The position numbers and the translations under genes were made by a program. Of a stretch of DNA of 64,000 bases, positions 23,980 through 51,244 are shown in pieces (within the stretch, counting starts at the first letter, position 1; the number at the start of each line of letters is the position of its first letter). This DNA is from Pseudomonas sp. PDM18 (GTDB taxonomy: Bacteria; Pseudomonadota; Gammaproteobacteria; Pseudomonadales; Pseudomonadaceae): positions 186,001 to 250,000 of the forward strand of contig NZ_JACVBX010000009.1 of NCBI RefSeq assembly GCF_014852585.1, in the 5' to 3' direction. The notes beneath the pieces are model-generated. The model saw only the letters and a list, made by a program, of their open reading frames with translations, did no database searches and had not been told where the DNA came from.

Positions 23980-24123
23980 GGCCAACACCCGGCTACCCCG
24001 CCGCTGCGTACCGCGCGCCGCCATCCGCGAGCCACGGTCAACGCAGCGCGGGAGCCACCTACCTCCTGCTACGCCCGCACCTCTGCTAATGTTCCGCGGC
24101 CCACTCCCGCCACGGATGCGACC

Positions 24124-24927
24124 ATGCGCCCACTGCTGCTGACGCTGCTCCTGCTCTGCCCCACCACCTTCGCCGCCACGCTCACCCTGGAATTGCCCGA
24201 CGGCAAGCACGACTTGAGCACGGAACAGTTGCTGGCCAACCCAAAGGCGCAGGACATCGAGATTCCCGCCGACGTCTCCTACAACCGCACCATGCATTAC
24301 CGCGCGGTGCCGCTGGCGGCGCTGCTGCAAGGTGTGCAGCCGGCCGACCACCTGCAGGCCGTGGCGCTGGATGGATTCGCCGCCGAACTGCCGGCCGCGC
24401 CGCTGCTGGCAGAAAAAGGTTCGCGCGCCTGGCTGGCCATCGAGGAGTCGGGTAAACCCTGGCCCCCGCTGGCCGAGGGCAAGCCATCCGCCGGGCCTTT
24501 CTACCTGGTGTGGAGCGATCCGAAAGCCGCTGGCATCGGCCCGGAGCAATGGCCCTTCCAGGTCGCCAGCATTCGTTACCTCAAGCCGCTGGCCGAGCGC
24601 TTCCCGGCGCTGCTGCCGGCGAAGAATGCGCCGGAATCAGTGCAGAAGGGCTTCGCCCAGTTCCAGAAGAACTGCCTGGCCTGCCACCGTCTGAACGGCG
24701 CCGGCGACTCTCAGTTCGGCCCGGACCTGAACCTGCCGCACAACCCCACCGAGTACTTCGCGCCGGGTTATCTCAAGCAGTACATCCGTGACCCGCAGAG
24801 CCTGCGGCACTGGCCGGAAGCGCGGATGAAAGGCTTCGCCGCCGATGTGATCAGCGATGCAGAACTGGACCAGATAGTCGCCTACCTGAAGCACATGGCG
24901 GGGCGGAAGGTGAAGGCTGGCGGGTAA
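24124..24927 (+). CDS. Periplasmic c-type cytochrome with N-terminal molybdopterin-oxidoreductase-like domain
   Basis: 267 residues. The Sec signal peptide is MRPLLLTLLLLCPTTFA. An N-terminal region of about 150 residues (SYNRTMHYRAVPLAALLQGV; DGFAAELPAAPLL; FYLVWSD) resembles the beta-rich fold of sulfite-oxidase/molybdopterin-binding oxidoreductases. It is much shorter and shows no cofactor-ligating Cys. The C-terminal class I cytochrome domain has CLACH (heme attachment) at about residue 185 and a distal Met in EARMKGFAADVISD. It is likely a soluble electron carrier or a subunit of a periplasmic dehydrogenase. The partner is unknown. Confidence 0.82.
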   Translation: MRPLLLTLLLLCPTTFAATLTLELPDGKHDLSTEQLLANPKAQDIEIPADVSYNRTMHYRAVPLAALLQGVQPADHLQAVALDGFAAELPAAPLLAEKGSRAWLAIEESGKPWPPLAEGKPSAGPFYLVWSDPKAAGIGPEQWPFQVASIRYLKPLAERFPALLPAKNAPESVQKGFAQFQKNCLACHRLNGAGDSQFGPDLNLPHNPTEYFAPGYLKQYIRDPQSLRHWPEARMKGFAADVISDAELDQIVAYLKHMAGRKVKAGG

Positions 24928-25014
24928 CCAAACCGGCACGGTAATGGCTCGCGAGCATGCTCACTCCTGCAGAGCATCCATCGAAAATTCTGGGTGCATC
25001 GGCGCAAGGGATTG

Positions 25015-25130
25015 CCCTCACCCTAACCCTCTCCCAGAGGGAGAGGGGACCGTTCGGAGCAGGATGAAACGACCGCGTCAGCCGGCACGGACGGCTCCCT
25101 CTCCCCTTGGGAGAGGGCTGGGGTGAGGGG
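25015..25130. repeat. Intergenic palindromic repeat, family A, copy 1
   Basis: The element opens with CCCTCACCCTAACCCTCTCC and closes with the inverted GAGAGGGCTGGGGTGAGGGG, with an inner CTCTCCC...GGGAGAGG near each end. It sits between the convergent cytochrome and Anbu genes and could fold as a long hairpin acting as a transcription barrier. Three relatives occur at 30656, 33664 and 51113. Confidence 0.82.
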
Positions 25131-25162
25131 TTTCAGCTCAAGCGCAGATGCTTAACCAGGCC

Positions 25163-25897
25163 TCAGTGCCAGTAATCCCCCGGCGGCGCCGGCAGTTCGC
25201 CCAGCAACTGGCGCAGCCCGGCGCCCCACTGGTTACGAATGCCCTCGAAGTATGGGTCGCCCTCCTGGATGCGGTACCCCGCCGGCACTTCCAGGCTGCC
25301 CTCGCGGTACACCAGCAGGTCCAGCGGCATGCCCACCGAGAGGTTGCTGCGGATAGTCGAGTCGAAGCTGATCAGCGCGCAGCGCAGGGCTTGTTCCAGC
25401 GGCGTGGCGTAGCTCATGGCGCGGTCGATGATCGGCTTGCCGTACTTGCTCTCGCCGATCTGGAAGTACGGCGTATCACGGCATGACTCGATGAAGTTGC
25501 CCTGTGGGTAGACGTTGAACAGGCGCGGCACTTCAGTGCCTATCTGCCCGCCGACCAGGAAGGAACTGCCCAGGTCGACACCCTGGTTCTGGCCGATGTT
25601 CTCGTCATGATCGACCACCTCGCGCAGCGTCGTACCCACGAGGCGCGCGGCCTCGAAGAGATTTTCCACCGTGCCGAGGTTGGGCCCGTCGCTCCCCATG
25701 CGCTGGCGCAGCGTGCTGATCACCGACTGGGAGGTGGCCAGGTTGCCGGCGCTCTGCACCACGATCAGGCGCTCTCCCGGCGTGCCGAAGATATGCAGCT
25801 TGCGGAACACCGCGATGTTGTCGACGCCGGCGTTGGTGCGCGAATCGGAAACGAAGACCAGGCCCTGGGCGAGGTTCATGGCGACGCAGTAGGTCAT
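25163..25897 (-). CDS. Anbu-type proteasome-like peptidase
   Basis: 244 residues. After removal of the initiator Met the sequence begins TYCVAM, giving an N-terminal threonine nucleophile as in proteasome beta subunits and HslV. With Thr as residue 1, Asp17 (VSDSRTNAG) and Lys32 (FRKLHIF) occupy the usual catalytic positions. This is the Anbu (ancestral beta-subunit) family, known to form open helical or ring-like assemblies of uncertain proteolytic activity. ATG 25897 places Thr correctly and is preferred to longer frames. It is the last gene of the ATP-grasp/alpha-E/transglutaminase operon, 70 bases after the transglutaminase stop. Confidence 0.92.
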   Translation of the reverse strand: MTYCVAMNLAQGLVFVSDSRTNAGVDNIAVFRKLHIFGTPGERLIVVQSAGNLATSQSVISTLRQRMGSDGPNLGTVENLFEAARLVGTTLREVVDHDENIGQNQGVDLGSSFLVGGQIGTEVPRLFNVYPQGNFIESCRDTPYFQIGESKYGKPIIDRAMSYATPLEQALRCALISFDSTIRSNLSVGMPLDLLVYREGSLEVPAGYRIQEGDPYFEGIRNQWGAGLRQLLGELPAPPGDYWH

Positions 25898-25967
25898 GGC
25901 TTTCTCATGGCGGCGGGAACTGGCACCGATCTTATGCCGGTGCCGACGCTTGTGCCACGCAACCTCA

Positions 25968-26777
25968 TCACTGCTGCGCCTGTTGCATCTGCTGCAGATG
26001 CCCAGGCGCCACGGTGACGCGGGCGTGCATCTGCTCGCCACCGCCGCCCCGGCGCATGCCGCGCACCGGACAGGCGTCGAGGTAATCCAGGCCCACCGCC
26101 AGCTTCAGGTGGCGCTCCGGGCGGTCCAGCACGTTGGTCACGTCGAAGCTGTACCAGGCGTCGTCGAGCCAGGCCTCGGCCCAGGCGTGGCTGGCCAGGT
26201 GGTCCTCGACGTCGGTATACAGGTAGCCGGACACATAGCGCGCCGGCACGCCCAGGTGGCGCAGGCAGGCGAGGAAGGCGTGGGCGTGGTCCTGGCAGAC
26301 GCCCTGCCCCGCTGCGAAGGCTTCGGCGGCAGTGCTGTCGACCTGGGTCGAACCGGGCACGTAGGCGATGCGCTCGTTCAAGGCCTGCATCAGCCTGATC
26401 ATCGCCTTGCGGTCGCGCCGCTCGGCGCACTGGGCGCGGGCGAACTCCTGCAGCGCGCCGTCGGCCTGGGTCAGGCGGGTGCTGCGCAGGAACGGCAGCG
26501 GCGACAGGTGATCGTGCTCGCGCTCGTTCTCCACGTCGATCTCCACCTGGCCGTGGGCGGCGATGACGATGGCCTCGTGGGGCTCGTCCAGGGTCAGCAC
26601 GTGGAGGATGTTGCCGTAGGCATCGCGCTGCGGATGCGCCGGGCGCGGCAGGTGCAGCTGCCAGTCGAGCACGTGCTGGCGCTCGCTTTCCTGCGGGGTC
26701 AGGCGCAGGTACTGGATGCTCGCGCGCACCTGGTCTTCGTAGCGGTAGGTGGTGTCATGGCGGATGGAGAGTTTCAT
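25968..26777 (-). CDS. Transglutaminase-like cysteine protease (with N-terminal bacterial transglutaminase domain)
   Basis: 269 residues. An N-terminal beta domain (MKLSIRHDTTYRYEDQVRAS; LRLTPQESERQHVLDWQL) is followed by the papain-like transglutaminase core. The triad is Cys in GQGVCQDHAHAFLACLRHLG (about 165), His in LASHAWAEAWLDDAWYSFD and Asp in FDVTN. Relatives hydrolyse or transfer amide bonds; in this gene context a peptide or isopeptide substrate is likely. Its ATG overlaps the alpha-E stop (ATGA, 26774-26777), so translation is coupled. It belongs to the four-gene set with CP-ATP-grasp, alpha-E and Anbu. Confidence 0.92.
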   Translation of the reverse strand: MKLSIRHDTTYRYEDQVRASIQYLRLTPQESERQHVLDWQLHLPRPAHPQRDAYGNILHVLTLDEPHEAIVIAAHGQVEIDVENEREHDHLSPLPFLRSTRLTQADGALQEFARAQCAERRDRKAMIRLMQALNERIAYVPGSTQVDSTAAEAFAAGQGVCQDHAHAFLACLRHLGVPARYVSGYLYTDVEDHLASHAWAEAWLDDAWYSFDVTNVLDRPERHLKLAVGLDYLDACPVRGMRRGGGGEQMHARVTVAPGHLQQMQQAQQ

Positions 26778-27724
26778 GCGGCCTCCAGGTACGAGCTGTG
26801 AATGGCGTTGGCGAGCTGACGAACCAGCCCGATATGGTCGGTGATCCAGGGATGCAGGCCGCTGCCCAGCACTTCGTCGATACCGGTGTAGCGCACCCGC
26901 GCCTCCAGTTCGGCGGCCAGACGCTGGGCCGGGCGGCCGTTGATGCCGGGCAGGCTGGCGAGGATCTGGCGCAGCTCTTCGGCGCAGGCCAGCAGCGAGC
27001 GCGGGACGTCCTCGCGCAACAGCAGGAGTTCGGCGATATTCCGTGCGTTGAGGGCGTCGCGGTACAGCTCGGTGTAGCCCTCGAACGCCGACAGCGCGCG
27101 CAGCAGCGCGGTCCACTGGTAGTAGCCGCGCGCCGTGCCTTCGGCCGGGCCGGCACTGTGCTCGCCCAGCACCTGATGCCGTGCGTCGAGCAGGCGCAGA
27201 GTGTTGTCGGCGCGCTCGATGTAGGTGCCCAGGCGGATGAAGTGGAAGGCATCGTTGCGCATGCTGGTGCCGAAAGTGGCGCCGCGGAACAGGTGCGAGC
27301 GGTCCTTCACCCATTCGCAGAAGTGGCTGATGCCGTAGCGCAGCAGGCCCTGGTGGGCGATGTCGCGCATCTCCAGCCAGGTGGCGTTGATGTTCTCCCA
27401 CATGTCGGTGGTGATCCGTCCGCGCACCGCATGGGCGCCGGCACGGGCCGCGCCGAAGCAGGAATAGATGCTCGCCGGGTTCTGCGCATCGAGGGCGAAG
27501 AAGTTCAGCAGACGTTCGGCGTGCAGGTCGCCGTGGCGGGCGAGATAGGCGTCGAGGTTGCCGGTGATCAGCAGCGGCATGGCCAGCTCCTCCAGGCCAT
27601 CGCCACGGCCGTCCTGGGGCATCAGCGACAGCGAGTAGGACACGTCGAGCATGCGCGCGAGGTTCTCGGCGCGCTCCAGGTAGCGCGACATCCAGTACAG
27701 GTCGGAAGCGGTTCTACTGAGCAT
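26774..27724 (-). CDS. Alpha-E domain protein
   Basis: A 316-residue, largely alpha-helical protein beginning MLSRTASDLYWMSRYLERAE, the hallmark of the alpha-E family (DUF403). A repeat of the helix motif (HFIRLGTYIERADNTLRLLD) occurs at about residue 180. The conserved R-Y-x-E-R-A and E-R-A-D-N glutamates give the family its name. The biochemical activity is not established. Alpha-E proteins are nearly always encoded with a circularly permuted ATP-grasp, which suggests a shared complex or a substrate-carrying role. It starts 2 bases after the ATP-grasp stop and overlaps the transglutaminase start. Confidence 0.93.
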   Translation of the reverse strand: MLSRTASDLYWMSRYLERAENLARMLDVSYSLSLMPQDGRGDGLEELAMPLLITGNLDAYLARHGDLHAERLLNFFALDAQNPASIYSCFGAARAGAHAVRGRITTDMWENINATWLEMRDIAHQGLLRYGISHFCEWVKDRSHLFRGATFGTSMRNDAFHFIRLGTYIERADNTLRLLDARHQVLGEHSAGPAEGTARGYYQWTALLRALSAFEGYTELYRDALNARNIAELLLLREDVPRSLLACAEELRQILASLPGINGRPAQRLAAELEARVRYTGIDEVLGSGLHPWITDHIGLVRQLANAIHSSYLEAA

Positions 27725-27726
27725 GT

Positions 27727-29139
27727 TTAATCCCCCACCACCCAGGTGTCCTTGGTACCGCCACCTTGTGACGAGTTGACGACCAGCGAACCTTCGCGCA
27801 GCGCCACGCGGGTCAACCCGCCGGGCACCAGGCGCACGTTGTCCGGCGCGGACAGAACGAACGGCCGCAGGTCGATGTGGCGCGGGGCGATGCCGTTCTC
27901 GACGAAGGTCGGGCAGGTCGACAGGCTCAGGGTCGGCTGCGCGATGTACGCCTCCGGACGCGCCATCAGCCGGGCGCGGAAGGCTTCGATTTCGGCGCTG
28001 CTGGCGGCCGGCCCGACCAGCATGCCGTAGCCGCCGGAGCCCTGGGCTTCCTTCACCACCAGCTCGGGCAGGTGCGCCAGCACGTGGGACAGGTCCTGCG
28101 GCCGGCGGCACTGCCAGGTCGGAACGTTGTGCAGGATCGGTTCCTGGTCGAGGTAGAAGCGGATCATTTCCGGCACGTAGGGATAGACGGATTTATCGTC
28201 GGCCACGCCAGTACCGATGGCGTTGGCCAGCACCACGTTGCCCGCGCGATAGGCGGCCAGCAGGCCGGGCACGCCGAGCATGGAGTCGGGGTTGAAGGCC
28301 AGCGGATCGAGGAAGTCGTCGTCGACGCGCCGGTAGATCACGTCCACCGGCATCGGGCCGGAGGTGGTACGCATGTAGACGCGCTCGTCGCGGACAAACA
28401 GGTCGGCGCCTTCCACCAGCTCCACGCCCATCTCGCGCGCAAGGAAGGCGTGCTCGAAATAGGCGCTGTTGAAGCGGCCCGGCGTCAGCACCACCACGCA
28501 GGGCTGCTCCACTTCGCTGGCCTGGCGCAGGGTGTCGAGCAACAGGTTCGGGTAGTGGTCGATGGGCGCGATGCGCTGGGCGCCGAACAGTTCGGGGAAC
28601 AGGCGCATCATCATCTTGCGGTTCTCCAGCATGTAGGAGACGCCGCTGGGAGTGCGCAGGTTGTCTTCGAGGACGTAGTAGGCGCCGTTGCCGTCGCGCA
28701 CCAGGTCGATGCCGGCGATGTGCGCGTAGACGTTGCCGGGCACGTCCAGGCCCTGCATCGCCAGTTGGTACTGGTCGTTGGCCAGGACCTGCTCGGGCGG
28801 GATCAGGCCTTCCTTGAGGATGCGCTGGTCGTGGTAGAGGTCGGCGAGGAACAGGTTGAGCGCCTGCACCCGCTGGATGCAGCCGGCCTCGATGATCTTC
28901 CACTCGCTGGCGGGGATGCTGCGCGGGATGGTGTCGAAGGGGATCAGGCGCTCGGTGCCCTGGTCGTCGCCATAGAGGGTGAAGGTGATACCCGCGCGAT
29001 AAAACAGCAGGTCGGCCTCTCGGCGGCGCTGCTGCAGCTGTTCGCCGGGCATGTCCGCCAGCCAGCGGGCGAACTCCGTGTAGTGCGGTCGGCAGGCGCC
29101 AGCGGCGTCATGCATTTCGTCATAGAACACCCGAGCCAT
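27727..29139 (-). CDS. Circularly permuted ATP-grasp ligase
   Basis: 470 residues of the circularly permuted ATP-grasp family (type 2, DUF404/407). Recognisable segments are DNLRTPSGVSYMLENRKMM (about 168), VVVLTPGRFNSAYFEHAFLA, YRRVDDDFLDPLAF, VVLANAIGTGVADDKSVYPY (about 300), and VVKEAQGSGGYGMLVGP, the glycine-rich ATP-binding loop (about 375). Members are predicted to join a carboxylate to an amine using ATP, making a peptide-like product; the substrate is unknown. AAGGAG eight bases before ATG 29139 fixes the start; the frame extends upstream without support. It is the first gene of the operon and lies behind a sigma-54 promoter. Confidence 0.94.
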   Translation of the reverse strand: MARVFYDEMHDAAGACRPHYTEFARWLADMPGEQLQQRRREADLLFYRAGITFTLYGDDQGTERLIPFDTIPRSIPASEWKIIEAGCIQRVQALNLFLADLYHDQRILKEGLIPPEQVLANDQYQLAMQGLDVPGNVYAHIAGIDLVRDGNGAYYVLEDNLRTPSGVSYMLENRKMMMRLFPELFGAQRIAPIDHYPNLLLDTLRQASEVEQPCVVVLTPGRFNSAYFEHAFLAREMGVELVEGADLFVRDERVYMRTTSGPMPVDVIYRRVDDDFLDPLAFNPDSMLGVPGLLAAYRAGNVVLANAIGTGVADDKSVYPYVPEMIRFYLDQEPILHNVPTWQCRRPQDLSHVLAHLPELVVKEAQGSGGYGMLVGPAASSAEIEAFRARLMARPEAYIAQPTLSLSTCPTFVENGIAPRHIDLRPFVLSAPDNVRLVPGGLTRVALREGSLVVNSSQGGGTKDTWVVGD

Positions 29140-29178
29140 CTTCCACTCCTTGTTGCCGCTCTCACTCGGCAACAGAGC

Positions 29179-29196
29179 TTCGCAAGGCTCGTGCCA
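29179..29196 (-). promoter_or_regulatory. Sigma-54 promoter of the ATP-grasp/alpha-E/transglutaminase/Anbu operon
   Basis: On the minus strand, TGGCACG-AGCC-TTGCG matches the -24/-12 consensus TGGCACG-N4-TTGCW at every position except the last. GG and GC are correctly spaced by ten bases. The expected start point is near 29170, giving a leader of about 30 bases to the ATG at 29139. Confidence 0.85.
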
Positions 29197-29247
29197 GAGG
29201 TCGATTTCCTGTCCATTCAATGACTTGCAAAGGCTGTTGGCGCAGAC

Positions 29248-29264
29248 CGCACTGCCATGGTGCG
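29248..29264. promoter_or_regulatory. NtrC-like enhancer site
   Basis: CGCAC-TGCCATG-GTGCG. GCAC and GTGC half-sites are separated by seven bases, as in classic NtrC sites (consensus GCAC-N7-GTGC). It lies about 85 bases upstream of the predicted sigma-54 start point, a normal enhancer position. It could also act on the divergent ydcS promoter. Confidence 0.6.
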
Positions 29265-29464
29265 AAACCGCTGCAGGCCGCGTGCGCTGCGCCCTTTTTG
29301 CGCCCACGGGCCGCGCCGGGGCTCGCTTGTCAGCCTCCGGGGCCAGAACTACGCTGCAAGAGCGTGGCCATTCCCCATGGACACGCAGCGGTGAACGGAG
29401 GTGCCATTTTTCTGCGCGCTGGTTCCGCAGTGGCTCCCACACGAAGAACAACAGGAGTCCGTCC

Positions 29465-30637
29465 ATGTCATCCGTGCAATTGTCTTCAGCGAAAGTCGCG
29501 GCGCTGGCTTTCGCCGGCATCAGCCTGCTCGCCAGCGGTTCGTTGCAGGCCGCCGAGGCGCTCAAGCAGCTGGGCAACCCCGAAGGCGCCCTCGATATCA
29601 TTGCCTGGCCCGGCTACATCGAACGCGGCGAGAGCGACAAGAACTACGACTGGGTGAGCCAATTCGAGAAGGACACTGGCTGCAAGGTCAACGTGAAGAC
29701 CGCCGCCACCTCCGACGAGATGGTCAGCCTGATGGCCAAGGGCGGCTACGACCTGGTCACCGCCTCCGGCGACGCCTCGCTGCGGCTGGTCTACGGCAAG
29801 CGCGTGCAGCCGATCAACATCGCCCTGGTGCCCAACTGGAAGAACGTCGACCAGCGCCTGCAGGACGCGCCCTGGCACACGGTGGACGGCAAGCACTACG
29901 GCACGCCCTACCAGTGGGGGCCGAACGTGCTGATGTACAACACCAAGGTCTTCCCCAAGGCGCCGGAAAGCTGGAGTGTGGTGTTCAGCGAACAGAAGCT
30001 GCCCGACGGCAAGAGCAACAAGGGCCGCGTGCAGGCCTACGACGGCCCGATCTACATCGCCGACGCTGCGCTCTACCTGAAGACCGCCGAGCCCAAGCTG
30101 GGCATCCAGGACCCCTACGAGCTCAACGAGGAACAGTACGCCGCCGCGCTCAAGCTGCTGCGTGAACAGCAGAAGCTGATCCACCGCTACTGGCACGACG
30201 CGACGGTGCAGATGAGCGACTTCAAGAACGAGGGCGTGGCCGCTTCCGGCTCCTGGCCGTATCAGGTGAACGCGCTGCTGGGCGAGAAGCAGCCGATCGC
30301 CTCCACCATCCCCGGCGAAGGCGTCACCGGCTGGGCCGACACCACCATGCTGCACGTCGACGCCAAGCACCCGGTGTGCGCCTACAAGTGGCTGAACTGG
30401 TCGCTGGAACCCAAGGTGCAGGGCGACGTCGCCGCCTGGTTCGGCTCGGTACCGGCCGTGCCGGACGGCTGCACCGGCAGCCAGTTGCTCGGCGCCCAGG
30501 GTTGCGCCACCAACGGCTACGACCAGTTCGATCGCATCGCCTTCTGGAAGACCCCGCAGGCCAAGTGTTCCCAGGGGCAGTGCGTGCCGTACAGCCGGTG
30601 GACGCAGGATTACATTGCGATCATGGGGGGCCGGTGA
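29465..30637 (+). CDS. ydcS: Polyamine-type ABC transporter substrate-binding protein YdcS
   Basis: A 390-residue periplasmic binding protein of the spermidine/putrescine (PotD/PotF, YdcS) family. Signal peptide: basic start, then VAALAFAGISLLASGSLQAA with cleavage near residue 30. The mature protein begins with the family-type LDIIAWPGYIERG, later WGPNVLMYNTKVFPKAPESW and GWADTTMLHVDAKHPVCAYKWLNW. Four cysteines in the C-terminal third probably form disulfides. AGGAG lies eight bases before the ATG. The gene order ydcS-T-U-V-patD is the same as in E. coli, where YdcS feeds putrescine uptake and has also been linked to polyhydroxybutyrate synthesis. Confidence 0.9.
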   Translation: MSSVQLSSAKVAALAFAGISLLASGSLQAAEALKQLGNPEGALDIIAWPGYIERGESDKNYDWVSQFEKDTGCKVNVKTAATSDEMVSLMAKGGYDLVTASGDASLRLVYGKRVQPINIALVPNWKNVDQRLQDAPWHTVDGKHYGTPYQWGPNVLMYNTKVFPKAPESWSVVFSEQKLPDGKSNKGRVQAYDGPIYIADAALYLKTAEPKLGIQDPYELNEEQYAAALKLLREQQKLIHRYWHDATVQMSDFKNEGVAASGSWPYQVNALLGEKQPIASTIPGEGVTGWADTTMLHVDAKHPVCAYKWLNWSLEPKVQGDVAAWFGSVPAVPDGCTGSQLLGAQGCATNGYDQFDRIAFWKTPQAKCSQGQCVPYSRWTQDYIAIMGGR

Positions 30638-30655
30638 CACTTCCGCGATTGAGAG

Positions 30656-30812
30656 CCCCTCTCCCCAGCCCTCTCCCTGAAGGGAGAGGGAGTCGTTCGA
30701 GCGGGAGCTGATAGCTGAGCCAGCCGGAAACTTCGTTTTCGCAGTGAGTGGTGAATCAACCGCGCTCGCCGAACAGTCCCCTCTCCCTTCAGGGAGAGGG
30801 TTAGGGAGAGGG
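30656..30812. repeat. Intergenic palindromic repeat, family A, copy 2
   Basis: The left end is CCCCTCTCCCCAGCCCTCTC followed by a short CCCTGAAGGG palindrome; the right end is the inverted CCCTTCAGGGAGAGGGTTAG. It lies inside the ydc operon between ydcS and ydcT, where a hairpin could lower expression of downstream genes relative to the binding protein or protect the ydcS mRNA 3' end. Confidence 0.8.
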
Positions 30813-30913
30813 AGCGCGATATGAGCCACACCATGATCTCCAGCTGACCAAGCGCCCTTCCCCCCATGCGCTACCTTTTCTGATGCAGCCCCGCCATTCA
30901 GGTAGCCAGCAGC

Positions 30914-31933
30914 ATGACCACAGCCGTCCAATTCACTGACGTGAGCCGTCACTATGGCGAGGTGCGCGCCGTCGATTCGGTGTCCATCGAGATCCGCGAC
31001 GGCGAGTTCTTCTCCATGCTCGGCCCTTCCGGCTCGGGCAAGACCACCTGCCTGCGCCTGATCGCCGGTTTCGAGCAGCCCACCTCCGGCTCCATCCGCA
31101 TCCATGGCGCGGAAGCGTCGGGCCTGCCGCCCTACGAGCGCGACGTGAACACGGTGTTCCAGGACTACGCGCTGTTCCCGCACATGAGCGTGCTGGACAA
31201 CGTCGCCTACGGCCTGAAGGTGAAAGGCGTGGCCAAGGCCGAGCGCTACCACCGCGCCGAAGAGGCCCTCGGCATGGTCGCCCTGGCCGGCTACGGCAAG
31301 CGCAAGCCGGCGCAGCTCTCCGGTGGCCAGCGCCAGCGCGTCGCCCTCGCTCGTGCGCTGGTGAATCGCCCGCGCGTACTGCTGCTGGACGAACCCCTCG
31401 GCGCGCTCGACCTGAAGCTGCGCGAACAGATGCAGGTGGAGCTGAAGAAGCTGCAACGCCAGCTCGGCATCACCTTCATCTTTGTCACCCATGACCAGAG
31501 CGAAGCGCTGTCCATGTCCGACCGCGTGGCGGTGTTCAACAAGGGCCGCATCGAACAGGTCGACACCCCCGGCAACCTCTACCGGCGCCCCGCCACGCGC
31601 TTCGTCGCCGAGTTCGTCGGCACTGCCAACGTGCTGCGCGGCGACCTCGGCCAACGCCTGCTGGGCGAGTCGTGCCCGCACTCGCTGCGCCCCGAGCACG
31701 TGCGCTTCGGCCGCGCCGGCGAAGGCGAGCTGGAAGTCAGCGGCACGCTGTTCGACGTGCAGTACATGGGTGCCAGCAGCCGCTACGAGATCGAACTGGA
31801 AAATGGCGTGCGTCTGGTGGCCGCCCTACCCAATGGCGAGCGAGAGGAGCAACGGCCGAAACCGGGTGACGCGGTGACCGCCTGCTGGGCGCGCAGCGCG
31901 CTGGTGCCGCTGCTCGAGGAACCGGCGCCGTGA
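30914..31933 (+). CDS. ydcT: ABC transporter ATP-binding protein YdcT
   Basis: A 339-residue ATPase of the polyamine/iron importer class. Walker A is GPSGSGKTTCLRLIAGFEQP (about 37), the signature LSGGQRQRVALARALVNRP (about 137), Walker B VLLLDEPLGALD, and the H-loop FVTHDQSEAL. A C-terminal TOBE-like domain follows (LRPEHVRFGRAGEGELEVSG). It powers import of the YdcS ligand through YdcU and YdcV. Its TGA overlaps the GTG of ydcU (GTGA). A family A repeat separates it from ydcS. Confidence 0.93.
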   Translation: MTTAVQFTDVSRHYGEVRAVDSVSIEIRDGEFFSMLGPSGSGKTTCLRLIAGFEQPTSGSIRIHGAEASGLPPYERDVNTVFQDYALFPHMSVLDNVAYGLKVKGVAKAERYHRAEEALGMVALAGYGKRKPAQLSGGQRQRVALARALVNRPRVLLLDEPLGALDLKLREQMQVELKKLQRQLGITFIFVTHDQSEALSMSDRVAVFNKGRIEQVDTPGNLYRRPATRFVAEFVGTANVLRGDLGQRLLGESCPHSLRPEHVRFGRAGEGELEVSGTLFDVQYMGASSRYEIELENGVRLVAALPNGEREEQRPKPGDAVTACWARSALVPLLEEPAP

Positions 31934-32832
31934 GGGCGATCTCCAGCTTCCTCTACCGGCGCAGCACGCTGTATCTGCTGATGCTGCTGATCCCGCCGTT
32001 GCTGTGGTTCGGGGTGATCTACATCGGCTCGCTGTTCGCCTTGCTCTGGCAGAGCTTCTACACCTTCGACGACTTCACCATGGCGGTGACGCCGGACCTG
32101 ACCCTGGCCAACTACCAGGCCCTGTTCAACCCGGCCAACTACGACATCGTCCTGCGCACCTTCAGCATGGCGATTACCGTGTCGGTGGCCAGCGCCGTCC
32201 TCGCCTTCCCCATCGCCTACTACATGGCGCGCTACGCCGGGCCGAAGGAGAAGGCGTTCTTCTACATCGCGGTGATGCTGCCGATGTGGGCCAGCTACAT
32301 CGTCAAGGCCTACGCCTGGACAGTGATCCTGGCCAAGGGCGGCATCCTCTATTGGGTGATCGAGCACCTGCACCTGCTCGGCCTGCTGGACCTGCTGTTG
32401 CAAGTGCCAGCCGTGGGCGGCAACACGCTGTCCACCTCGCACCTGGGCCGTTTCTGGGTGTTCACCTACGTCTGGCTGCCGTTCATGATCCTGCCGATCC
32501 AGGCCGCCCTGGAACGCCTGCCGCCCTCGCTGCTGCAAGCCTCGGCGGACCTCGGTGCGCACCCGCGGCAGACCTTCTTCCAGGTGATCCTGCCGCTGGC
32601 CTTCCCCGGCGTGGTGGCGGGCTCGATCTTCACCTTCAGCCTGACCCTGGGCGACTTCATCATCCCGCAACTGGTCGGCCCCAGCGGGCTGTTCATCGGC
32701 ACCATGGTCTACGTGCAGCAGGGCGCGGTGGGCAACATGCCGCTGGCGGCGGCCTTCACCCTGGTGCCCATCGTGCTGATCGCCGTCTACCTGTCCATCG
32801 CCAAGCGACTGGGGGCCTTCGATGCGCTCTGA
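31930..32832 (+). CDS. ydcU: ABC transporter permease YdcU
   Basis: A 300-residue inner-membrane permease with about six transmembrane helices. It carries the EAA-type cytoplasmic loop that contacts the ATPase, in [34 protein letters not shown] (about residues 195-228). The GTG start overlaps the ydcT stop by four bases, and the end overlaps ydcV by 11 bases, a pattern of tight translational coupling. It forms the channel with YdcV for putrescine-like substrates. Confidence 0.92.
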
Positions 32833-33643
32833 CGCACACTCCACCGATCGGCCCTCCTGGTTCCTGCGCTTGGCGGCCTGGGGCGGGCTGGTGTTCCTGC
32901 ACTTCCCGATCCTGGTGATCCTGCTCTACGCGTTCAACACCGAGGAGTCGGCCTACAGCTTCCCGCTGCAGGGCTTCACCCTGAAGTGGTTCAGCATTGC
33001 TTTCCAGCGCGGCGACGTGCTCGACGCCATCTGGCTGTCGGTGAAGATCGCCTGCGTCGCCACGTTGATCGCCATGGTCCTCGGCACCCTGGCCGCTGGC
33101 GCGCTGTACCGCCGCGACTTCTTCGGCAAGGAGAGCATCTCGCTGATGCTGATCCTGCCCATCGCGCTGCCCGGCATCATCACCGGTATCGCCCTGCTGT
33201 CGGCGTTCAAGACGCTGGGGATCGAACCCGGCTTCCTGACCATCGTCATCGGCCACGCGACCTTCTGCGTGGTGATCGTCTACAACAACGTGATCGCCCG
33301 CTTCCGCCGCACCTCCTTCAGCCTGATCGAAGCGAGCATGGACCTGGGCGCCGACGGCTGGCAGACCTTCCGCTACATCATCCTGCCGAACATCGCCACG
33401 GCGCTGCTGGCCGGCGGCATGCTGGCCTTTGCCCTGTCGTTCGACGAGATCATCGTCACCACCTTCACCGCCGGCCACGAGCGCACCCTGCCGCTGTGGC
33501 TGCTCAACCAGCTGAGTCGCCCGCGCGACGTGCCCATCACCAACGTCGTCGCCATGCTGGTGATGCTCGCCACCATGCTGCCCATTCTTGGCGCCTACTA
33601 CCTGACGCGCGGGACCAGCGACGTGGCGGGGGGCGGGAAATGA
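32822..33643 (+). CDS. ydcV: ABC transporter permease YdcV
   Basis: A 273-residue second permease of the system. The EAA loop is visible as [29 protein letters not shown] (about 167-195), and hydrophobic segments flank it ([33 protein letters not shown]). The ATG at 32822 lies within the last codons of ydcU. It ends just before family A repeat copy 3 and patD. Confidence 0.92.
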
Positions 33644-51112: not shown

Positions 51113-51244
51113 CCCCCTCACCCCCTCCCTCTCCCTGAAGGGAGAGGGAGCCGTATGTGCCAATTGAAGCCAGAGTGTCAGCCGGCACCGACCAGTCCCC
51201 TCTCCCTTCGGAGCGGGGCGCGTAGCTAGGGTTAGGGAGAGGGT
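51113..51244. repeat. Intergenic palindromic repeat, family A, copy 4
   Basis: Left arm CCCCCTCACCCCCTCCCTCT, inner CCCTGAAGGG, right arm with GGAGCGGGGCGCGTAGCTAGG, then GTTAGGGAGAGGG. The GAGCGGGGCGCG segment matches copy 3 at 33664 and is absent from copies 1 and 2. It lies between mtnD and mtnC. Confidence 0.8.

Follow-up and report, generated by a model that had tools for sequence, protein, structure and literature searches.

A four-gene ATP-grasp, Alpha-E, transglutaminase-like and Anbu operon in Pseudomonas sp. PDM18: a possible nitrogen-starvation pathway for joining and cleaving small amides

The window analysed here, 64,000 nucleotides from Pseudomonas sp. PDM18 (contig NZ_JACVBX010000009.1, positions 186,001 to 250,000, in an assembly of 6.4 Mb and 65 contigs), carries at positions 25163–29139 four minus-strand open reading frames (ORFs) that encode, in order, an ATP-grasp enzyme, an Alpha-E protein, a transglutaminase-like protein (TG) and the proteasome-like protein Anbu. 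This gene set is the published ‘Anbu operon’, present as an orthologous copy in a relative of Pseudomonas nitroreducens. We read it, tentatively and with somewhat less than even confidence, as a nitrogen-starvation operon that ligates and cleaves amides between small peptides or acids and amines. The operon would be turned on under nitrogen starvation by phosphorylated NtrC and sigma-54. The ATP-grasp enzyme, with Alpha-E as an obligatory second subunit, would then convert the carboxylate of a small peptide or acid into an acyl phosphate, which would be joined to an amine, either a polyamine or an amino acid. TG, a cysteine hydrolase, and Anbu, an N-terminal nucleophile (Ntn) hydrolase, would cleave amides, presumably the same or related ones. 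Nitrogen would be stored or mobilised via an amide conjugate, in a pathway resembling a split glutathionylspermidine synthetase/amidase. Such a cycle is the simplest reading because an intact ligase of that fold family, an inseparable partner, two hydrolases and nitrogen control are found together. The four genes are as follows.

27727 to 29139, minus strand: ATP-grasp amide ligase (CP_ATPgrasp), predicted, 470 residues, first gene of the operon (PF14403, 558 bits; cut-off 32).
26774 to 27724, minus strand: Alpha-E, 316 residues, all-helical (PF04168, 305 bits; cut-off 20.8).
25968 to 26777, minus strand: TG, predicted transglutaminase-fold cysteine hydrolase, 269 residues, with Cys161-His197-Asp212 (PF08379, 84.5 bits, and PF01841, 78.4 bits, both above cut-off).
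25163 to 25897, minus strand: Anbu, proteasome-like Ntn hydrolase, 244 residues (PF00227, 20 bits, below the cut-off of 22.4; solved Anbu 5lox, E = 1.9e-97).

The packed arrangement had been described in an initial annotation of this DNA, and the ORFs, their order and their spacing all match it: the ATP-grasp and Alpha-E genes are separated by a 2-base gap, those of Alpha-E and TG overlap by 4 bases, and those of TG and Anbu lie 70 bases apart. That annotation had also taken the gene set to be known already, rightly, as the published Anbu operon has the same four genes in the same order. Both marks of that operon are present in the window, namely the gene order on one strand and Anbu residues Thr1, Asp17 and Lys32 (numbered after loss of Met). 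The window Anbu matches five solved Anbu sequences with E values from 1.9e-97 (5lox) to 1.8e-66 and is 99% identical, over the best segment, to the Anbu of P. nitroreducens 381H. The genome holds one Alpha-E and one ATP-grasp protein of the CP_ATPgrasp type. No RNA family reached its gathering score in 24000–31000, no sigma-70-like promoter was found in 24900–29600, and two terminator-like sites occur in the latter interval, with 2.1 expected.

Conservation of the operon was followed in 80 loci, the best of 380 relatives by Anbu similarity (56–99% identical), which range over Pseudomonas, Stutzerimonas, Vogesella, Chitinimonas, Roseateles, Serratia, Yersinia and Moraxellaceae; genes in GC-rich loci were called from codon usage, for ORFs of at least 60 residues. 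Seventy of the 80 have the genes in the order ATP-grasp, Alpha-E, TG, Anbu. The ten deviating loci comprise four with Anbu only, three with TG and Anbu, two that lack TG and one with Anbu first, and in four of them (L010, L012, L030, L038) a contig end cuts the upstream side. Anbu lies upstream of the ATP-grasp gene, and not last, in L066; it stands without other operon genes nearby in L043, L053 and L060. The Anbu triad, described earlier as intact in the window, is retained in all 80 loci when checked from the DNA. Of 74 aligned relatives, 73 retain Cys161 of TG and all 74 retain His197 and Asp212, in agreement with the earlier assignment of a cysteine protease/transglutaminase, here a predicted hydrolase. 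The transglutaminase fold is papain-like. The operon observation is confirmed as real, with conservation far beyond chance.

Occurrence of the proteins was compared across a sample of 299 Pseudomonadota genomes. Alpha-E is found in 171 of them; CP_ATPgrasp_2 is found in 174 at E ≤ 0.001 and in 171 above the family cut-off, the three extra genomes (G296, G021, G135) having E values above 1e-4 and all others below 1e-150. The ATP-grasp and Alpha-E sets are the identical 171 genomes, so that the all-helical protein, proposed earlier as a helical partner, never occurs without ATP-grasp in the sampled genomes. Anbu, searched with its own alignment (E ≤ 1e-8), is present in 115 genomes, 113 of which hold the ATP-grasp/Alpha-E pair (Fisher p = 1.4e-35, uncorrected for relatedness); the only two with Anbu and no pair, G094 and G248, belong to one genus of the sample. 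Among 40 regions chosen from the 171 genomes for family diversity and counted by hand, all 40 have the Alpha-E gene no more than 0.8 kb after that of ATP-grasp and on its strand; TG occurs in 31 and Anbu in 23. In some genomes Anbu is remote from the pair and still co-occurs with it, as in G082 (C1:2937064 versus C1:1193735). These counts make the ATP-grasp/Alpha-E pair the core of the system, to which the hydrolases are added variably; Anbu follows the core in its occurrence. The joint system of the initial annotation is upheld to the extent that the genome counts favour linked over separate roles for the four proteins; the build-and-remove tag that it attached to that system is so far unsupported.

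These counts bear on a view close to that of PMC5666114, in which Anbu frees amino acids from cell proteins in nitrogen starvation while the other genes have separate roles. That source reports that Anbu binds proteasome inhibitors and has its active sites in a ring, and it argues for protein degradation, and nitrogen-limited expression is likewise in print. An independent protease would not be expected to fall almost wholly within pair-bearing genomes (113/115), nor to be missing from 58 of the 171 genomes that hold the pair, and in the assays described in PMC6376114 Anbu was inactive on three standard peptide-aminomethylcoumarin (AMC) substrates. We regard bulk protein recycling as decidedly improbable.

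Upstream of the first gene lies a sigma-54/NtrC-like promoter, at 29182–29263, a feature absent from the earlier annotation. It is made up of two elements.

29182 to 29196, minus strand: sigma-54 −24/−12 element TGGCACGAGCCTTGC, an exact match, 42 nt before the ATP-grasp start codon.
29249 to 29263, no strand assigned: NtrC-like palindrome GCACTGCCATGGTGC, with two mismatches; its start lies 67 bp upstream of that of the −24 element.

With a −24/−12 element and, upstream of it, an NtrC site of two mismatches, the operon has the makings of an NtrC/sigma-54 regulon member. The −24/−12 consensus used is the generally known one. It agrees with GGcacg-N4-ttGC as given in PMC5491218, and the operon-strand element reads TGGCACG-N4-TTGC. 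Exact matches number six in the 6.4 Mb genome, the operon’s included, against two for a reversed-pattern control. In relatives the element was scored with our own weights (threshold 13 of 15) in 72 testable loci, seven loci without an ATP-grasp match and one without upstream DNA being left out. A sigma-54-like element of at least 13/15 is present in 70 of the 72, located 32–125 nt before the aligned ATP-grasp start; the opposite strand gave 0/72 and shuffled regions 2.8% of 1440. The two loci below threshold are L032 (Azomonas agilis, also without TG) and L033. An NtrC-like palindrome with at most two mismatches, within 200 bp upstream of the element, accompanies it in 32 of the 70 loci (0.9% of 1400 shuffles), and in 17 of those 32 it lies 66–68 bp away. 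The window as a whole holds 17 such palindromes, with 5.4 expected, and a single site is weak alone; because they are so common, the window site rests on the conserved spacing in relatives. Since related loci are not independent, these promoter counts overstate the number of events. No description of a cross-family conserved sigma-54 element was found in searches of open-licence papers.

Nitrogen control of the operon is already known from print. In P. putida, PP_2685–2687 were raised 11.1-, 6.6- and 7.1-fold under nitrogen versus carbon limitation (PMC3325844), and PP_2685 and PP_2688 by log2 4.44 and 3.99 on nitrate versus ammonium (PMC8050072). Of four promoters tested in the latter study, two apparently responded, PP_2688 (3.7-fold) and urtA (8.8-fold), and those of glnK and PP_2685 were nitrogen-independent. 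Wild-type induction of PP_2686–2688 was 12.61-, 11.04- and 14.66-fold in Table 2 of PMC7801951, whose authors consider PP_2685–2688 likely to be under NtrB/NtrC control. For a relative of the operon in Burkholderia cenocepacia, I35_5080–5083, an ntrC mutation changed expression by log2 −8.2, −9.4, −9.4 and −6.0 (PMC5491218).

The operon might alternatively serve the catabolism of external amide or peptide nitrogen, the hydrolases freeing nitrogen and the ATP-grasp enzyme activating a carboxylic intermediate, with no storage and no tag. Putrescine breakdown, which uses gamma-glutamylated intermediates, is a model for such a scheme. The Burkholderia regulon is shared with urea, nitrate, dipeptide and polyamine uptake genes (PMC5491218), the domains are statistically associated with urea metabolism in marine metagenomes (PMC3597751), and a divergent YdcS-type transporter adjoins the operon in the P. 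nitroreducens group. Against it, all or most of the 80 loci have no other gene cluster in common: outside the operon the largest cluster, an ATP-binding cassette (ABC) ATPase, reaches 22/80. We hold this scheme to be improbable.

The fold relatives of the ligase hint at conjugates of small molecules. The window ATP-grasp protein (P0004) has a sole strong PDB sequence match, 3n6x (E = 2.3e-214), which was deposited as a putative glutathionylspermidine synthase. Its place in CP_ATPgrasp follows from a Pfam match above cut-off together with an intact E-x-N-x-R, Lys and Gly-rich loop, the motif of ATP-grasp enzymes. E158, N160, R162, D314-D315-K316, K363, the GGYG loop at 369–372, D423 and R425 are present and presumably have the ATP/Mg role that the ATP-grasp motif assigns to them; they are 99–100% conserved in 132 standalone homologues (P0004 and 131 full-length standalone proteins of the loci). 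The enzyme predicted at the outset to form amides with ATP is borne out to this degree. A homologous ATP-grasp, tested without Alpha-E, releases phosphate from ATP, and the same report describes no stimulation of that release by Anbu (PMC6376114). In eight regions (L119, L121, L124, L126, L129, L132, L135, L151) a fused ATP-grasp/Alpha-E protein occurs alongside the standalone pair; compared by their first 520 residues, the fused proteins (P0125–P0244) have lost most of the ATP-site residues that the standalone relatives keep, and are candidate pseudo-ligases. The ATP-grasp domain of one fused homologue, P0131, shares its fold with glutathione and glutathionylspermidine synthetases, and 3n6x is its best match.

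Alpha-E has a predicted all-helical structure (35 sequences; predicted local distance difference test, pLDDT, 88.1; predicted template modelling score, pTM, 0.87). Its two halves are homologous in sequence. When residues 1–153 were aligned with 154–316 by hhalign, the probability was 99.4 and the E value 1.7e-21 over 144 columns from 63 aligned proteins, and reversing one half lowered the probability to 0.5. By this sequence comparison Alpha-E is an internal duplication, and each half carries an E-R motif (E17-R18 and E170-R171). Twelve positions, L2, R14, E17, R24, S85, N113, G166, E170, R171, L208, P241 and R242, are invariant in 63/63 proteins. No related solved fold was recognised.

The tag that the initial annotation had imagined being built and then removed has a precedent in Iyer 2009, a paper that PMC5666114 and PMC6376114 cite for it. 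The pair would attach a peptide or amino-acid tag to proteins in nitrogen starvation, and TG and/or Anbu would remove the tag or degrade the protein, roughly as in the Pup system. The association of a ligase with two peptidase-like enzymes in one operon, the near confinement of Anbu to pair-bearing genomes, nitrogen control and the printed proposal itself all suit this idea. Yet no shared unfoldase or tag gene was recognised within about 8 kb of the 80 loci among ORFs of at least 60 residues, a limit that a small tag could escape; Anbu is described in print as an open split ring (a lock-washer); neither a complex nor peptidase activity appears in the published accounts; and the fold relatives of the ligase make small conjugates. 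PMC6376114 reports no Anbu peptidase activity and no specific pull-down partner, and PMC5666114 favours protein degradation. Protein tagging is rather improbable in our judgement. The fold relatives and the nitrogen promoter suggest small peptides and amines no less than protein tags.

For the ligate-and-cleave amide cycle, we infer that Alpha-E binds the ligase, that the substrate is a small molecule and that the amide made by the ligase is what the hydrolases cut. Several results weigh against this reading. The ligase has no GSP_synth Pfam match, a search up to E = 10 giving only two CP_ATPgrasp and two weak ATP-grasp families, and the fold matches were measured on P0131, whose own ATP site is degraded. 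Glu and Gln gave no stimulation of phosphate release by the homologue in PMC6376114, and the pull-downs of that report yielded no specific interaction or complex; because Anbu was the bait, they did not look for an ATP-grasp/Alpha-E complex. The 58 pair-bearing genomes without an Anbu match make Anbu unnecessary for the core reaction. As to regulation, the stretch before PP_2685 drove nitrogen-independent expression (PMC8050072). PP_2686–2688 were still up 14.16-, 16.02- and 19.61-fold in a P. putida rpoN mutant (PMC7801951, Table 2), which argues against strict sigma-54 dependence; urtA was also still induced 11.12-fold in the same mutant, and the Anbu gene PP_2685 was nearly flat (1.12 in the wild type, 1.45 in the mutant). 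Phylum-wide, in 40 regions counted by hand, two of them from the window’s own genus, a score of at least 13 upstream of any ATP-grasp gene was reached in 12/40 and on the opposite strand in 4/40, and several genomes of the window’s own class are without the element. The sigma-54 element is therefore a property of the close-Anbu set and not of the whole family. A general beta/gamma-proteobacterial promoter was considered and rejected, as the 72 loci come from the nearest Anbu relatives and several same-class genomes are without the element. Lastly, a YdcS-type transporter adjoins the operon in only 8/80 loci (L002–L008, L075), and is therefore taken as a local neighbour.

To the published picture the present analysis adds the close-set nitrogen promoter, a pair never split in the genomes sampled and accompanied by Anbu, the Alpha-E duplication, a fused candidate pseudo-ligase and a ligase fold family known for small conjugates. 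A fuller proposal, unlikely to hold in all its parts, would make ATP-grasp and Alpha-E the two subunits of one amide ligase, with Alpha-E, of duplicated fold, indispensable for catalysis or for carrying the substrate, and serving a widespread nitrogen-stress pathway that joins a peptide or glutamate-like acid to an amine; the fused paralogue would be the binding-only pseudo-ligase of a second version, and Anbu the pathway’s amidase, not a protein-degrading proteasome ancestor. Anbu is often taken for an ancestral subunit of the proteasome, and the question of what it and the very common Alpha-E proteins do goes back to 2009 or earlier. Were Anbu part of a small-amide pathway under NtrC control, the right substrate would allow its missing peptidase activity to be tested, and the account of proteasome origins would change. 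The unbroken pairing of ATP-grasp and Alpha-E shows which two proteins to purify jointly.

The surroundings of the operon vary. At 29465–33643 of the window lies a divergent ABC transporter of the YdcS, polyamine-like type, which has its intergenic region in common with the operon; its substrate-binding protein matches YdcS at 767 bits (NCBIfam cut-off 725). Polyamine transport as a general theme was rejected on the 8/80 count. A spermidine synthase gene (scanned in L021) lies upstream in eight loci, mostly Stutzerimonas and relatives, and Enterobacterales loci have upstream a gene of the RidA family (scanned in L048) together with apparent pyrBI genes. No gene outside the operon is common to the whole 80-locus set. 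A GNAT-type gene is inserted between Alpha-E and TG in 11/80 loci (Vogesella, Chitinimonas and others).

GNAT-type inserts: L039, 6692 to 7213; L042, 5968 to 6465; also in L045, L047, L049, L050, L051, L055, L061, L073 and L077.

The two scanned inserts score as ArsN1 family B, with 225.1 and 223.1 bits against a cut-off of 210, presumably an acetyltransferase of glutamate-analogue amino acids, which offers a weak hint to the substrate of the operon. In the Chitinimonas loci L042, L049 and L050 an extra gene, about as large as the insert, separates ATP-grasp from Alpha-E; in L042, the one scanned, it is a GNAT gene. Repeats resembling CCCTCACCCTAACCCTCTCCC form two inverted pairs, at 25015–25129, just downstream of Anbu, and at 30657–30812, after the YdcS-type gene; a fifth match lies at 51115, making five in the window, with none in shuffles.

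Among known systems, E. coli GspSA and the trypanosomatid trypanothione synthetase-amidase differ from the window operon, which has separate proteins, the additional Alpha-E and Anbu, and no GSP_synth match, the related ligase fold being seen on the fused homologue P0131. Its predicted amidase is of the transglutaminase type, versus the CHAP type in GspSA and trypanothione synthetase-amidase. E. coli YgiC/YjfC is not known to have an Alpha-E partner. The Pup-proteasome system is alike in combining a ligase with a proteasome-fold protease and in its link to nitrogen starvation, but neither Pup nor an AAA unfoldase is among the operon’s four genes. In B. cenocepacia, I35_5080–5083 include ATP-grasp (DUF404/407), Alpha-E (DUF403) and transglutaminase-like genes under NtrC, as here; that cluster differs in having a second, large transglutaminase-like gene, and the account in PMC5491218 names no Anbu. 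The closest counterpart is the Anbu operon described in print for P. putida, P. aeruginosa and Yersinia bercovieri, with the same four genes, order and catalytic residues; the P. putida operon also shares nitrogen-limited expression, and no essential difference was found between the published operon and the orthologous copy in the window.

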